From: Rhodospirillales bacterium
Lineage (GTDB): Bacteria > Pseudomonadota > Alphaproteobacteria > Rhodospirillales > Magnetovibrionaceae
Assembly: GCA_024653965.1 (NCBI GenBank)
Contig: JANLGW010000055.1
Span: 1-43,312, forward strand
DNA length: 43,312 nucleotides
Reading direction: 5' to 3'
Below the pieces are notes generated by a model. That model did no database searches. It was not told where the DNA came from and was given only the letters and a program-made list of their open reading frames with translations. The translations under genes and the position numbers were made by a program. Positions 1,826 to 37,890 of this stretch are shown piece after piece (the first letter of the stretch is position 1; each line of letters starts with the position of its first letter).

Positions 1826-4423
1826 TTACGCCGCCCAATCCTCCACGGCTTGGCCGTTGATGGTCAGGTGTTTGGCTTTGGCCGAAACTTGAACCGTATC
1901 GCCGTCTTTGATTTTGCCTTCGAGCAACAGCGACGCCATTGGGTTTTGCAACGCGCGTTGAATGACACGCTTTAGCGGGCGCGCGCCGTACACCGGATCA
2001 TAGCCCTTTTCCGCCAGCCAATCTTTGGCCGCATCGTCCAAGGTCAACGTGATCTTGCGCTCCGTGAGCAAAGCCAACAAACGCTGCAATTGGATATCGA
2101 CGATGCCCGCCATGTGTTCGCGGAACAGCCGATGGAACAAGATCACCTCGTCCAAGCGGTTAAGGAATTCGGGACGGAACGCACCGCGCACCACGTCCAT
2201 CACCTGGGCGCGCACTTCACCTGAATCGTGGCCTTCTTTTTGGTTGGCCAGGATGTCGCCGCCTAAGTTCGATGTCAGCACGATCAAGGTGTTGCGAAAG
2301 TCTACCGTGCGTCCATGACCATCGGTCAGGCGGCCATCATCCAACACCTGAAGCATGACGTTGAACACGTCCGGGTGCGCCTTTTCGACTTCATCGAACA
2401 AGATCACCTGATAGGGGCGACGGCGCACGGCTTCGGTAAGCGCCCCGCCCTCGTCATAACCGACATAACCCGGCGGCGCGCCGATCAGCCGCGCCACGGC
2501 GTGCTTTTCCATATATTCCGACATGTCGATGCGCAACAAAGCGCTTTCGTCGTCGAACAAAAATTCAGCCAGCGCCTTGGTTAATTCAGTTTTGCCCACG
2601 CCGGTTGGTCCTAAAAACAAAAACGAACCGATGGGGCGGTTTTGATCCTGCAGGCCCGCGCGCGCACGGCGCACCGCATTGGCCACGGCGGTCAGGGCTT
2701 CTTCTTGACCCACCACCCGACCGCGCAACCCGTCTTCCATATGCACCAGTTTATCGCGTTCCGATTCCAGCATTCTGTCGACCGGAATGCCGGTCCAGCG
2801 CGACACCACCTGAGCGATATGCTGAGGCGTCACCGCTTCTTCGACCATGCGGTGGTTTTCGGCATTTTCGGCCTCGGCCAATTGCCGTTCCAGGGCAGGA
2901 ATGCGTTCGTACTGCAACTCGCCGACCTGTTCGTAGCGCGCTTCACGCATGGCGCGTTCCAACTCGCCGCGCGCATGGTCGAGCCGTTCTTTAATCCGCG
3001 TCGCCCCGGCAAGCGCGTTTTTCTCGCTCTCCCACTCGGCGGTGAGCGCGGTAGACTTATCTTCCAGATCGCTCAGCTCTTTTTCGATCACACCAAGACG
3101 TTCGCGTGAAGCCGCATCAATTTCTTTCTTCATCGCCTCGCGTTCGATCTTCAGTTGAATGATCTTGCGATCCAGCTCATCGAGTTCGTCGGGTTTGGAA
3201 TCCACCTGCATACGCACCCGCGAAGCCGCCTCGTCCATCAAATCGATGGCTTTGTCGGGCAAAAAACGATCCGTGATATAGCGGTTCGAGAGCATCGCCG
3301 CCGACACCAGCGCGGCGTCATGGATGCGCACGCCATGATGAAGTTCGTACTTTTCTTTAATGCCGCGCAAAATCGAAACGGTATCTTCCACGGTAGGCTC
3401 AGACACAAATATCGGCTGGAAGCGGCGCGCCAAGGCGGCGTCCTTTTCCACGTGTTTGCGGTATTCATCCAGCGTCGTCGCACCGACGCAATGCAATTCA
3501 CCACGGGCCAAGGCCGGTTTAATCAGGTTCGACGCATCCATCGAGCCTTCCGCCGCGCCTGCGCCGACCAAGGTGTGCATTTCATCGATAAACAAAATGA
3601 TCTGGCCCTCGGCGGACTCGACCTCTTTCAGCACCGCTTTAAGGCGTTCTTCAAACTCGCCGCGAAACTTGGCGCCCGCCACCAGCGCGCCCAAATCCAA
3701 CACCAGCAGCTTTTTGGTTTTTAAGTTTTCCGGCACATCGCCGCCCACGATACGGTTGGCTAAACCTTCAACGATGGCCGTTTTGCCGACGCCGGGTTCG
3801 CCGATCAGCACCGGATTGTTTTTGGTGCGGCGGCTGAGCACTTGGATGGTGCGGCGGATTTCTTCATCACGACCGATGACCGGATCGATTTTGCCATCGG
3901 CGGCGGCCTGGGTCAGGTCACGCGCGTATTTTTTCAAGGCATCGAAGCCGTCTTCGGCGCTGGCGCTATCGGCGGTGCGGCCCTTACGCAGGTCTTCGAC
4001 TGCCTTATTTAAGCTTTGTGGCGTCACGCCCGCGTTTTTCAACACTTGGCCCGCCTCGCCACCAACGTTCAAGGCCAGCGCCAGCAACAGGCGCTCCACG
4101 GTAATGAAGCTGTCGCCCGCTTTTTCCGCCAACTGCTCGGCCTGTTCGAGCACCTTATTGAGATCGCGCGTAAGATACACCTGCCCCGCGCCCTGGCCTT
4201 CAACCTTGGGCAGCTTGGCCAGCGCCGTCTCAGTCCCCTGTAGCGCCTTTTTGGCATCACCACCCGCCGCCTTGATCAACCCGGCGCACAGGCCTTCTTT
4301 GTCTTCCAGCAACACCAACAACAGGTGCAGGGGCGTCAATTGCTGATGATCGCGCCGCCCGGCCGTCATTTGTGCCGACTGCAAAAACCCTTTGGAGCGC
4401 TCGGAATACTTTTCAAAATCCAT
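1826..4423 (-). CDS. clpB: ATP-dependent chaperone ClpB
   Basis: This 865-residue protein is the Hsp100 disaggregase, which works with DnaK to pull polypeptides out of heat-induced aggregates in the cytosol. In order: an N-terminal Clp repeat domain (about 1-150), a first AAA+ module with Walker A GEPGVGKT near residue 205, the long coiled-coil middle domain typical of ClpB (about 405-525, rich in Glu/Arg/Lys), and a second AAA+ module with GPTGVGKT near residue 605 and a C-terminal D2-small domain. The length is normal for the family. The presence of the middle domain separates it from ClpA and ClpC. It starts at ATG with GGGATGTGAAG upstream. A sigma-32 type promoter would be expected, but only a weak match was seen. 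Monocistronic, converging on the M23 gene. Confidence 0.98.
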
Positions 4424-35273: not shown

Positions 35274-35310
35274 GATAAATCTACCTTATTTTTCAGTACG
35301 TTGTTTGTTG

Positions 35311-35357
35311 TCCCGGTAGTTCCGAACCGCCACGGAACCCCGTGAGGCCGGACGGGA
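35311..35357 (-). promoter_or_regulatory. Structured rpsD mRNA leader
   Basis: Within the leader, TCCCG 35311-35315 pairs with CGGGA 35353-35357. Two inner stems compete: GTTCCG 35319-35324 with CGGAAC 35333-35338, and CACGG 35331-35335 with CCGTG 35340-35344. A switchable fold like this could let S4 regulate its own mRNA, as S4 does in E. coli, though the fold is not the known one. Confidence 0.4.
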
Positions 35358-35409
35358 AGAACGCCAACAAAGGGCGCCATCCACATTCCCGGAAGGCTTT
35401 AGAGCGCGC

Positions 35410-35437
35410 ACTATACGCAAAAAGCGGCCCGAAGCAA
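35410..35437 (-). promoter_or_regulatory. rpsD promoter
   Basis: On the minus strand -35 TTGCTT (35432-35437), 16-base spacer and -10 TATAGT (35410-35415). Transcription would start near 35403, 130 bases before the rpsD ATG. Confidence 0.7.
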
Positions 35438-35453
35438 GGGATTTAGAGCGGGG

Positions 35454-36002
35454 CTACTTCTCCAGTTCGCTATCCCAATAGAGATAGTCGAGCCAGGTGT
35501 GGTGCACGCTGGCGGGGGTCACGCGCCGGGCCACCTGATTGAGCAGGCGGATCGAGGGTTCCAGCGCGTCTTGGATCAGCGGCATGCCCGCTTCTTGGGG
35601 GGTGCGGTTGGCTTTGAGCATGTTGCACGGTGCGCACGCCGCCACCACGTTGGTCCATTCCGTCAGCCCGCCGCGCGAGCGCGGCATGACGTGGTCGAAG
35701 GTCAGCTCAGGGGTGGGAAACCGGTCGCCGCAATACTGGCACTTAAAACCATCGCGCAGATAGATGTTGTAGCGGGTAAAAGCGGGCCGCCCGTTAAAGG
35801 TGACATAACGCTTGAGCGCCACCACGGAGGGCACATGCAGCTCGGTGCTGGGCGAGCGCACCACCCGGTCGTAATGCTCGACCAGATTGACGCGCCCCAT
35901 CAACAGCGCCGATACGGCGTCTTTCCACGACCACAACGACAGCGGATGATAGCTGAGCGGGCGGTAGTCGGCGTTGAGCACCAAGGTCTGCAAGCCGCTC
36001 AT
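35454..36002 (-). CDS. HNH endonuclease
   Basis: A 182-residue HNH nuclease. The C-terminal half is the HNH domain: zinc pair CQYCG, core LTFDHVMPRSRGG with the catalytic His, then NVVAACAPCNMLKANRTP with the second zinc pair. The N-terminal half (TLVLNADYRPLSYHPLSLWSWKDAVSALLMGRV) is conserved in this widespread chromosomal HNH family, whose role is unknown. The ATG at 36002 has GGAGGG six or seven bases upstream and overlaps the stop of a 70-codon ORF (ATGA). That ORF contains an intrinsic terminator, so expression may depend on read-through. Confidence 0.92.
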   Translation of the reverse strand: MSGLQTLVLNADYRPLSYHPLSLWSWKDAVSALLMGRVNLVEHYDRVVRSPSTELHVPSVVALKRYVTFNGRPAFTRYNIYLRDGFKCQYCGDRFPTPELTFDHVMPRSRGGLTEWTNVVAACAPCNMLKANRTPQEAGMPLIQDALEPSIRLLNQVARRVTPASVHHTWLDYLYWDSELEK

Positions 36003-36211
36003 GCCCGGCCCTCCGCCTTTATCCACTGCACCCGCGTCCGGTTGGGCATAAAAAATCCCGCCAAAAGGCGGGGGGCAAAAAAGGCGGTGAAAGACGTGTG
36101 CGTCCGGGTTGTGCGCTGGCTGTCCAGGCCCCGGCTACTCAGGCAGCGGCTATTGGACCATTGGGCGCTGAATTCAACCGTATGGGGTATCCTAGGTGTC
36201 TTTGCAGACAT
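35999..36211 (-). CDS. Probable 70-residue leader protein upstream of the HNH gene
   Basis: A small ORF with a strong ribosome site: CGGAGG six bases before the ATG at 36211. The product is basic and Arg/Ser/Thr-rich (SNSRCLSSRGLDSQRTTRTH), ends IKAEGRA and resembles no family I know. Its TGA overlaps the HNH ATG, a sign of coupled translation. Codons 44-58 (FFAPRLLAGFF) are made by an intrinsic terminator sequence. It could be a true small protein or a regulatory leader whose translation prevents the terminator from folding. The coding status is inferred only from the ribosome site and the overlap. Confidence 0.5.
   Translation of the reverse strand: MSAKTPRIPHTVEFSAQWSNSRCLSSRGLDSQRTTRTHTSFTAFFAPRLLAGFFMPNRTRVQWIKAEGRA
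36049..36073 (-). terminator. Intrinsic terminator inside the leader ORF
   Basis: On the minus strand CCCGCC (36072-36067), loop TTTT and GGCGGG (36062-36057) are followed by A and six T. It is 45-50 bases before the HNH start and about 215 bases past the HPP gene stop. It could end HPP transcription, attenuate HNH, or both. Confidence 0.75.
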
Positions 36212-36242
36212 ACCGATCCTCCGCTTTAACCGTACAGAGAAT

Positions 36243-36274
36243 ACTATATCTTGTAACGATTACACAATCATTAC
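36243..36274 (-). promoter_or_regulatory. Possible promoter with 22-bp palindrome before the leader ORF
   Basis: A -10 box TATAGT on the minus strand (36243-36248) lies about 30 bases before the leader ORF. The -35 position is covered by GTAACGATT 36253-36261 and AATCATTAC 36266-36274, an inverted repeat with one mismatch and a 4-base spacer. The -35 itself is poor, so the palindrome may bind an activator or repressor. Confidence 0.5.
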
Positions 36275-36288
36275 ATAGCGCATCCGGT

Positions 36289-36858
36289 TTATCCGCCATC
36301 GGCGTCGCTGGCGCCGTCCGAATGGCCGGATTTGCGGATCGGCACTTGGTCTTCCTTCAAAACATTGTGCAAAATCAGTGGATACGTGGTGCGCGGCGGA
36401 ATCATGTGGATCAGCGTCGCGATCCCCACCAGCACCAGCGTTCCGGTTAGGATCGGCACCAACAAAAATCCCCAGCCCGGATCGGACAGAAAAATCACCA
36501 CCGGATCGGCACCGGCGGGCGGATGGGTGATGCGCAGCGCCATCATCACGGTGATCACCGCACCGACGGCCAACGCGATAGCCCACCATTCGTTCGGCAG
36601 CACCATGCGCAGCAACAGCCCCAAAGCGCTGCCCGCCGCATGCCCCGCGATCACGTTGACCGGTTGGGCCAGGGGGCTTGAAGGAGCCGCGAACAACAGC
36701 ACGCACGACGCGCCGAACGGCGCAATCAATAGCGGTTCATGGCTGACCGCGCCGATCCAGCCGATGATGCCCATGGCCAACGCAGCACCCACGCCGGATT
36801 TGACCCAGCTCGCCACGTCATTGCCAGGCAAATGCCGATAAATAAATCGCCTTACCAT
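36289..36858 (-). CDS. HPP family membrane protein
   Basis: A 189-residue integral membrane protein of the HPP family, named after the motif His-Pro-Pro seen in RITHPPAGADPVV. Four or five membrane segments are visible (about residues 20-40, 45-65, 75-95, 100-120 and 135-155). Cyanobacterial and plant relatives transport nitrite in plastids or thylakoids; the bacterial substrate is unproven. The ATG at 36858 (MVRRFIYRHLPG) fits homologues; the open frame reaches 36984 but overlaps the start of the divergent gluQ. Confidence 0.88.
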   Translation of the reverse strand: MVRRFIYRHLPGNDVASWVKSGVGAALAMGIIGWIGAVSHEPLLIAPFGASCVLLFAAPSSPLAQPVNVIAGHAAGSALGLLLRMVLPNEWWAIALAVGAVITVMMALRITHPPAGADPVVIFLSDPGWGFLLVPILTGTLVLVGIATLIHMIPPRTTYPLILHNVLKEDQVPIRKSGHSDGASDADGG

Positions 36859-36957
36859 GCCCAACGTCCCATCTGATTCCCATCTTCTGCTTAAGTTCTG
36901 CGCCTGCGAAAAGCAAGGCGCTTGCCAGAACAAGAGTTTGCTTCCATCTTTTCCGCC

Positions 36958-37890
36958 ATGACCGAAATCAAGTCTCCACCGCAAAAAATTGGCGTCGTCA
37001 CCCGCTTTGCGCCCAGCCCCACGGGGCTACTGCACTTGGGCCACGCCTGCGCCGCGCTATTTGCCGAAACCCAGGCGCGCGCCGCCAACGGGCGGTTTTT
37101 GCTGCGCATCGAAGACATTGACCGGGGGCGCTGCCGCGCCGAGTTTGAAAATGCGATCTATGGAGATTTGGCGTGGCTGGGCCTAACGTGGGAAACCCCG
37201 GTGCGCCGCCAATCCGATTGCATGGCCGATTACCAAGCCGCACTGGAACGCCTGAACCGTCTGGGTGTGTTATATCCGTGTTTTTGCACCCGCGCCGACA
37301 TCAAAGCCGAAATCGAAGCCGCCCAGGGCGCGCCGCATTTGGCGCAAAACGCAGATCAATTCAGGGGGGGCCAATTCGGGCCAATATACGGGCCAGACGG
37401 GCCGCTTTATCCCGGCACCTGCCGCGCCTTAACGATGGAGGAGCGCGAATCGAGAGTTGCGGCGGGCATGGCGTTCGCGTTACGCCTTGATATGAAACAC
37501 GCCCTGAACCTTGCGCACGACATTGCCGGAGAACTCACTTGGCGCGATTTGGATGAGGGTGAGATCAAAGCCACCCCGGAAATTTTCGGCGACGTCGTTT
37601 TGGCGCGCAAAGATACCCCCACCAGTTATCACTTGGCGGTAACCGTGGACGACCACATCCAGGGAGTCACTTTGGTGACCCGCGGCGAAGACCTGTTCCC
37701 GGCAACCCATATTCACCGCCTGTTGCAGGCCTTATTGGGGCTGGACGTTCCGGTCTGGCGGCATCACGGTTTGCTGGTAAACGCAGACGGCAAACGCCTA
37801 GCCAAACGCGACCAGGCCGAGACGCTGCAGAGCCTTCGCCAAAGCGGGCATAGCCCCGCCCAAGTCCGCCGCATGGCTGGCTTCACATAA
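36958..37890 (+). CDS. gluQ: tRNA glutamyl-Q(34) synthetase GluQRS
   Basis: GluQRS is a shortened glutamyl-tRNA synthetase without the anticodon-binding domain. It attaches glutamate to queuosine at position 34 of tRNA-Asp. The 310-residue protein has the class I HIGH-type motif APSPTGLLHLGHA, the KMSK-like LAKRDQAETL, and the zinc site C-x-C...Y-x3-C (PCFCTR with LYPGTCR). The last two features separate it from full GltX. The ATG at 36958 fits the family; the in-frame TTG at 36922 adds 12 residues without support. Confidence 0.94.
   Translation: MTEIKSPPQKIGVVTRFAPSPTGLLHLGHACAALFAETQARAANGRFLLRIEDIDRGRCRAEFENAIYGDLAWLGLTWETPVRRQSDCMADYQAALERLNRLGVLYPCFCTRADIKAEIEAAQGAPHLAQNADQFRGGQFGPIYGPDGPLYPGTCRALTMEERESRVAAGMAFALRLDMKHALNLAHDIAGELTWRDLDEGEIKATPEIFGDVVLARKDTPTSYHLAVTVDDHIQGVTLVTRGEDLFPATHIHRLLQALLGLDVPVWRHHGLLVNADGKRLAKRDQAETLQSLRQSGHSPAQVRRMAGFT

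Follow-up and report, generated by a model that had tools for sequence, protein, structure and literature searches.

The subject of this analysis is the 5′ leader of a gene for an HNH-family protein in a 43,312-nucleotide stretch of DNA (the window; contig JANLGW010000055.1, positions 1 to 43,312) from a Rhodospirillales bacterium of the Magnetovibrionaceae (assembly GCA_024653965.1; genome G000, 2.99 Mb). A short open reading frame (ORF) in this leader runs through a putative intrinsic transcription terminator and stops on the start codon of the HNH gene, and the same layout recurs in eight related genomes, which together with G000 are referred to below as the leader genomes. The leader is probably a pyrBI-like transcription attenuator, in which translation of the leader ORF would suppress termination, with translational coupling to HNH in addition. 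From upstream to downstream, the elements of the locus are as follows.

36235..36272, minus strand: predicted promoter of the leader-HNH transcript, from a promoter model learned from relatives; −10-like TATAGT at 36248-36243
36218..36222, minus strand: Shine-Dalgarno (SD) sequence GGAGG of the leader ORF, read from the sequence; −9.5 kcal/mol for the duplex with an assumed 16S tail
35999..36211, minus strand: leader ORF of 70 codons, spanning the terminator and running into the HNH start; frame open in 9/9 leader genomes
36050..36072, minus strand: intrinsic terminator within the ORF (6-bp stem 36072-36057, A, T6 36055-36050), from fold energy and an inner stem pair that covaries in relatives
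36009..36014, minus strand: SD sequence GGAGGG of HNH, within the leader ORF, read from the sequence; duplex energy −10.0 kcal/mol, again with an assumed 16S tail
35999..36002, minus strand: ATGA, the leader stop overlapping the HNH start, read from the sequence and with the same junction in relatives
35454..36002, minus strand: HNH protein gene, 182 aa; Pfam HNH_5 6.5e-15, HNH 3.5e-12

The leader ORF starts with ATG, 6 nt separate GGAGG from this codon, and its TGA overlaps the HNH ATG at 36002, in agreement with an earlier sequence-only reading of this DNA that had pointed to a 70-codon ORF with a strong ribosome site and a stop codon overlapping the HNH start. The HNH protein scored well above the curated cut-offs of both Pfam families (PF14279, 55.3 bits with a cut-off of 27.5; PF01844, 46.7 with a cut-off of 21.4), and its family membership suggests that the product acts as a nuclease. 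PADLOC returned only weak HNH-domain matches (best 3.1e-7), from which no defence assignment was drawn.

The terminator in the window reads CCCGCC-TTTT-GGCGGG-A-TTTTTT on the minus strand, i.e. a GC stem of 6 bp closed by a loop of 4 nt, and the distance from the end of its T-tract to the HNH ATG is 47 nt, within the 45-50 bases given by the sequence-only reading. Its folding energy of −13.7 kcal/mol was matched in 0/200 shuffles, and its pairs formed with a probability of 0.99-1.0 when the leader was folded from an assumed start site. As four terminator-like matches were present in 35300-37000 against 1.9 in shuffles (s.d. 1.3), a lone match of this type is weak evidence. In all nine leader genomes the terminator folds at −12.4 to −15.4 kcal/mol, and its helix is predicted within the whole leader of each (start sites assumed). 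Alignment of the stem on eight of the nine sequences, L013 being left out for its loop of 5, gave 98.2% of cells paired and a covariation score of 0.260 vs. 0.113 (0/500 shuffles), the innermost pair being G-C in four sequences, A-U in three and C-G in one. The hairpin ends 120-207 nt past the leader start, and the ORF runs 8-18 codons beyond the stem. A further T6 run at 36077-36082 (minus strand), peculiar to the window, stops 4 nt short of the stem and could add a pause site; a UTP-type pause tract was looked for in the eight relatives as well, and their last 30 codons contain no run of at least five T ahead of the stem.

The family sample comprised the 18 genomes in our collection, 13 of which carry HNH. 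The layout is present in nine of these 13 (the window, L003-L008, L012 and L013), or in the window and 8/12 others, always in the same order: an SD-like sequence and start codon, an ORF of 51-81 codons, a terminator spanned by that ORF (9/9), and an ATGA junction (GTGA in L012). Frame, hairpin and start/stop overlap, whose retention in relatives the sequence-only reading had proposed as a check, are thus all conserved in the eight relatives. The remaining HNH-bearing genomes show a promoter-like site directly before HNH and no leader (L009-L011, group g5), or neither leader nor terminator (G005, L027). Three genomes of the same genus as the window, G001-G003 (L033-L035, L045-L047), are without HNH, the leader and the HPP gene described below, and in them rpsD adjoins gluQRS.

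The ortholog sample held 130 loci, or 129 without the uncounted paralog L032 (13 from the family, 36 from other members of the order and 80 named loci, these being the best 80 of 589 confirmed stretches), and 127 were scored for terminators, L054 and L130 being left out for short upstream sequence. Nine leader-type terminators were obtained, all in the family, together with two hairpins lacking a proper T-tract (L104, L171) and 116 loci with none; the layout was not found outside the family among the 127 orthologs scored, the named loci in this sample being the best 80 of 589. A pattern describing the terminator-to-ATGA arrangement matched 35 places in seven family genomes and hit HNH in 7/7; for 30 of the 35 places the locus was inspected, and at two of them, neither at HNH, a stem was accompanied by an ORF of ≥60 aa downstream. 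In L167 (G013), an unrelated gene of at least 501 aa has a strong terminator-like stem with an ATGA start ~50 nt downstream. Judged by its recurrence in eight other genomes, the HNH layout is beyond chance.

The frame leading into the ATGA is free of stops in 9/9 leader genomes, against 2/9 and 3/9 for the other two frames; the chance of an open frame in shuffles ranged from 0.063 to 0.79 per genome, with a product of 3.7e-6 if the genomes are taken as independent. The spacing between the last T and the start of HNH was 47, 17, 29, 29, 29, 44, 26, 44 and 26 nt (counted to the last T in L006, which has seven T, and to the GTG in L012), i.e. five different values that are all 2 mod 3, and therefore the terminator is always read as Gly-Phe-Phe. 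The peptide itself has diverged beyond alignment: the middle of the leader could not be aligned reliably, the nine peptides share no conserved residues outside the stretch dictated by the terminator, and the window ORF had no Pfam match. Translation rather than the peptide seems to matter, because the amino acid composition is close to that of shuffled DNA, with somewhat more Phe (6.1 vs. 2.9%, from the terminator) and Thr (8.3 vs. 5.9) and less Leu (5.6 vs. 9.8), Cys (1.5 vs. 3.5) and Tyr (0.2 vs. 2.3). This fits a selection on being translated that would not extend to the encoded peptide. A fusion of leader and HNH by slippage or −1 frameshifting at the T-run was considered as well and rejected, as the HNH frame has a stop between the T-run and the ATG in L004, L007 and L008.

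Upstream of the leader, a promoter model (consensus GGnAnTTGGnAAnnnnnnACAACATGTAGTATTCTnCG, 13 training sites; 19 further loci were left out of the scoring) was significant in 12/18 of the loci L014-L031, which are mostly order-level, in L009-L011 and in three of the 80 named loci (the best of 589 confirmed stretches). Of these 18 sites, one is at −12, and HNH starts 35-63 nt downstream of the other 17. The window site scored 25.2 (0/300 shuffles), whereas the best score in the last 130 nt before HNH was −13.9, and a sigma-70-type scan of 35300-37000 found no promoter (0.6 in shuffles). The stretch ACAAGATATAGTATTCTC at the window promoter is common to L022 and L027. Among the leader genomes the best site was located 202-277 nt upstream of HNH in 8/9, clearly so in the window, L004, L005, L007 and L012, and none had a good site within the last 130 nt. 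The pyrBI-type arrangement of a promoter upstream of the leader and none after the terminator is hence indicated, by a sequence model only, in eight of nine genomes, three of them weakly. Given the lack of a good site so close to HNH, and a mere 17 nt past the T-tract in L003, HNH is most likely reached by read-through. The absence of a promoter between terminator and HNH, asserted by the sequence-only reading, agrees with both scans, and an HNH start downstream of the terminator, which that reading named as a finding that would overturn it, is not indicated by any promoter-like site seen there, the conserved site being upstream of the leader.

Before the −10 region of the window, at 36248-36275 (minus strand), there is a direct repeat GTAA-N7-GTAA that also occurs in the leader relatives (GTAA-N7-GCAA in g5), and the spacing of which presumably resembles that of response-regulator boxes such as CtrA. 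A regulon-wide promoter box was rejected: a 28-base pattern of the g4 site, which would miss a shorter shared box, occurred once per genome, at HNH, in 6/6 g4 genomes and in 0/5 other genomes searched.

According to the attenuator model, RNA polymerase would start at the promoter near 36250 and transcribe a leader of ~230 nt, on whose ORF a ribosome initiates. A ribosome close behind the polymerase would cover the nascent terminator and keep the hairpin from forming, letting transcription proceed into HNH, and on stopping at the TGA atop the HNH ATG it would hand over to HNH by translational coupling. If leader translation failed or lagged, the hairpin would form and the transcript would end before HNH. 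The comparison supports the components of this model, namely the layout, the conserved frame, the conserved terminator and an upstream promoter; the direction of the switch and the coupling are what we infer from them, and the signal would be ribosome availability or speed and not a special codon. Terminators placed within the first ~100 bp of an E. coli coding region are active, but beyond this distance they can be repressed by ribosomes that follow (available part of PMC4824070), and the leader hairpins, which end at 120-207 nt, lie beyond the ~100 bp over which Li et al. found terminators unrepressed (same source). Similarly, tight coupling over pyrL is described to prevent its terminator (available part of PMC5021804). 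The earlier proposal that HNH would be made only while the leader is translated is accordingly the most economical reading of the sequence and agrees with the E. coli work on terminators in ORFs, but 'only' is too strong, some translation-free read-through being likely; likewise, a nuclease under translation control would be the simplest reading, but the nuclease part of it comes from the protein family.

Several points weigh against this model. The product of 3.7e-6 assumes independence, yet the nine genomes are related; the leader starts were picked by the analyst as SD-preceded starts in that frame, and the open frame is uninformative for the GC-rich L013 (P0 0.79). On the side of the promoter, the model was trained on sites at most 160 nt from HNH, the upstream site is weak in L003 (0.05 of shuffles), L006 and L008 (0.013), and no site was found by the model in L013. 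Both partners vary in a single stem pair only, and neither the number of such pairs nor that of pair types exceeded shuffles (362 and 356 of 500). On reading the nine peptides, neither shared regulatory codons nor a codon run for a single amino acid was seen. Control by the leader is, as far as the comparison goes, dispensable, since three g5 genomes and G005 do without the leader, and the leader-HNH unit as a whole is likewise so because G001, G002 and G003 lack HNH and have rpsD beside gluQRS. Finally, repression of a late-in-ORF terminator was partial in one E. coli construct, the termination efficiency being 40% of control (available part of PMC4824070).

These observations have to be weighed against other explanations of the locus. 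The terminator might lower HNH expression by a constant factor, with the ORF serving to keep the leader translated, stable and coupled and with no response to a signal; random-looking peptides, a whole leader that in the window folds no better than shuffles and several relatives managing without any leader would all suit such a fixed-level attenuator. Terminator, phase and overlap have been kept, however, while the sequence between them turned over, and a weaker promoter would be a cheaper route to the same effect, which is an argument and not data, so that we consider this explanation unlikely. A small RNA as an independent transcription unit, from which HNH would be reached by leaky read-through past an incidental ORF, would account for a discrete promoter-like site and a terminator enclosing some 150-235 nt, but appears very improbable given that its body is not conserved, that the open frame and the 2-mod-3 spacing are, that the fold of the window leader is no more stable than that of shuffles (z −0.03), and that no Rfam match reached the gathering score in the window (five matches in 35900-36400 were far below it, best E 0.51). 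The same fold and Rfam results gave no support to a riboswitch or other structured RNA leader.

The view that the ORF codes for a small protein with a function of its own, made together with HNH, can scarcely be maintained in spite of the SD-like sequence, start codon and HNH overlap found in nine genomes, and a conserved functional peptide was rejected on the lack of conserved residues beyond the terminator stretch, the near-random composition and the missing Pfam match of the window ORF. Equally remote is the idea that the terminator ends an upstream gene and that HNH has its promoter after it. A gene for an HPP-family membrane protein does lie between gluQRS and the leader in the window (36289-36984, minus strand) and thus ends at 36289 on the same strand, but it is upstream of the leader in only four of the nine leader genomes, the next gene found in the other five being a divergent gluQRS. 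With no such gene in these five loci, the terminator is not HPP's own and would belong to the leader-HNH transcript; moreover, only 17 nt lie between T-tract and HNH in L003, and the promoter model finds nothing between terminator and HNH.

With regard to known systems, the leader resembles that of E. coli pyrBI, where the pyrL leader ORF contains an intrinsic terminator and a close ribosome suppresses termination (available parts of PMC4824070 and PMC5021804). The genes downstream differ, pyrimidine synthesis genes there and an HNH protein gene here, and UTP sensing is not indicated because the T6 before the hairpin of the window is absent from the eight relatives. Here the stop codon of the leader lies on the start of the following gene, whereas pyrL ends before pyrB. 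The way of working would thus be that of pyrBI, but not as a member of its UTP-sensing kind. Attenuators of amino-acid operons (trp, his, ilvB type), which rely on regulatory codons and alternative hairpins, also place an intrinsic terminator under the control of a translated leader; they differ in that here the ORF extends across the terminator and the leaders have no codon run in common. Their terminators lie >20 bp beyond the leader peptide gene (available part of PMC4824070). E. coli ampC, too, is preceded by a terminator, and anti-termination there depends on growth rate (PMC6045580, as far as available). In a survey of 302 genomes, 15,930 putative attenuators were predicted, 1,004 of them over annotated short ORFs, and such premature 5′ terminators overlapping short ORFs are of a comparable kind, although 'HNH' does not occur in the available main text (PMC2965389); a Caulobacter transcript map reports leader peptides, again with no 'HNH' in the text available (PMC4117421). 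No account of this HNH leader was found in our literature search, most subscription papers being outside its reach. As for the ampC attenuator, to our knowledge it has no long overlapping leader ORF.

A further explanation concerns the origin of the leader and is compatible with the attenuator reading: the ORF may be what is left, in degenerate form, of the 5′ end of an earlier resident HNH gene, kept because the incoming gene relies on coupling, with the terminator being secondary. In a tree of 43 HNH proteins, the family proteins except that of G005 grouped with those of Methylobacterium, L062 and L104 (100/99), apart from the G005 type, and a single clade for all family HNH proteins was rejected (p-AU 0.002; the grouping was chosen after an earlier tree). 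The leader state requires at least two changes on the tree; as L012 with its leader sits among leaderless g5 genomes, either a loss in g5 or a second gain is implied. Since rpsD follows HNH in G005 and in 8/9 leader loci (the L003 contig ends first), the gene beside rpsD was likely displaced in place, the resident type being replaced. L104 (metagenome-assembled genome Rhodospirillaceae bacterium Bin_26_3) carries at 2474-3288 a 91-codon truncated HNH of the resident type (profile match 2.8e-16), with an overlapping stop/start into a complete second HNH of the other type, which looks like a gene displacement still under way; just upstream of this HNH/HNH junction there is also a hairpin that lacks a proper T-tract. 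The scar explanation is opposed by the leader peptides, which have no residual similarity to resident-type HNH (E 0.42-2.2, vs. 2.8e-16 for the L104 stub), and it leaves the conserved terminator unexplained; we hold it to be possible but doubtful. The leader as a recognisable HNH remnant was rejected for want of any similarity, and for the same reason an L104-like displacement as its origin is a suggestion by analogy.

Tentatively, then, the frame may be kept only for the passage of ribosomes, left over when a foreign HNH displaced the resident gene behind its promoter: the peptide would drift while openness, phase, terminator and ATGA were retained, tying a nuclease-family gene to the state of translation. 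Translation-suppressed terminators in leader ORFs are best known from pyrBI, and the present leader would be a lineage-specific example on a widespread alphaproteobacterial HNH gene. A frame and a terminator that are kept while peptide and RNA body are not form a signature that ordinary conservation screens would tend to miss, and in-place gene displacement leaving a translated stub is suggested as a possible route by which such leaders may arise.
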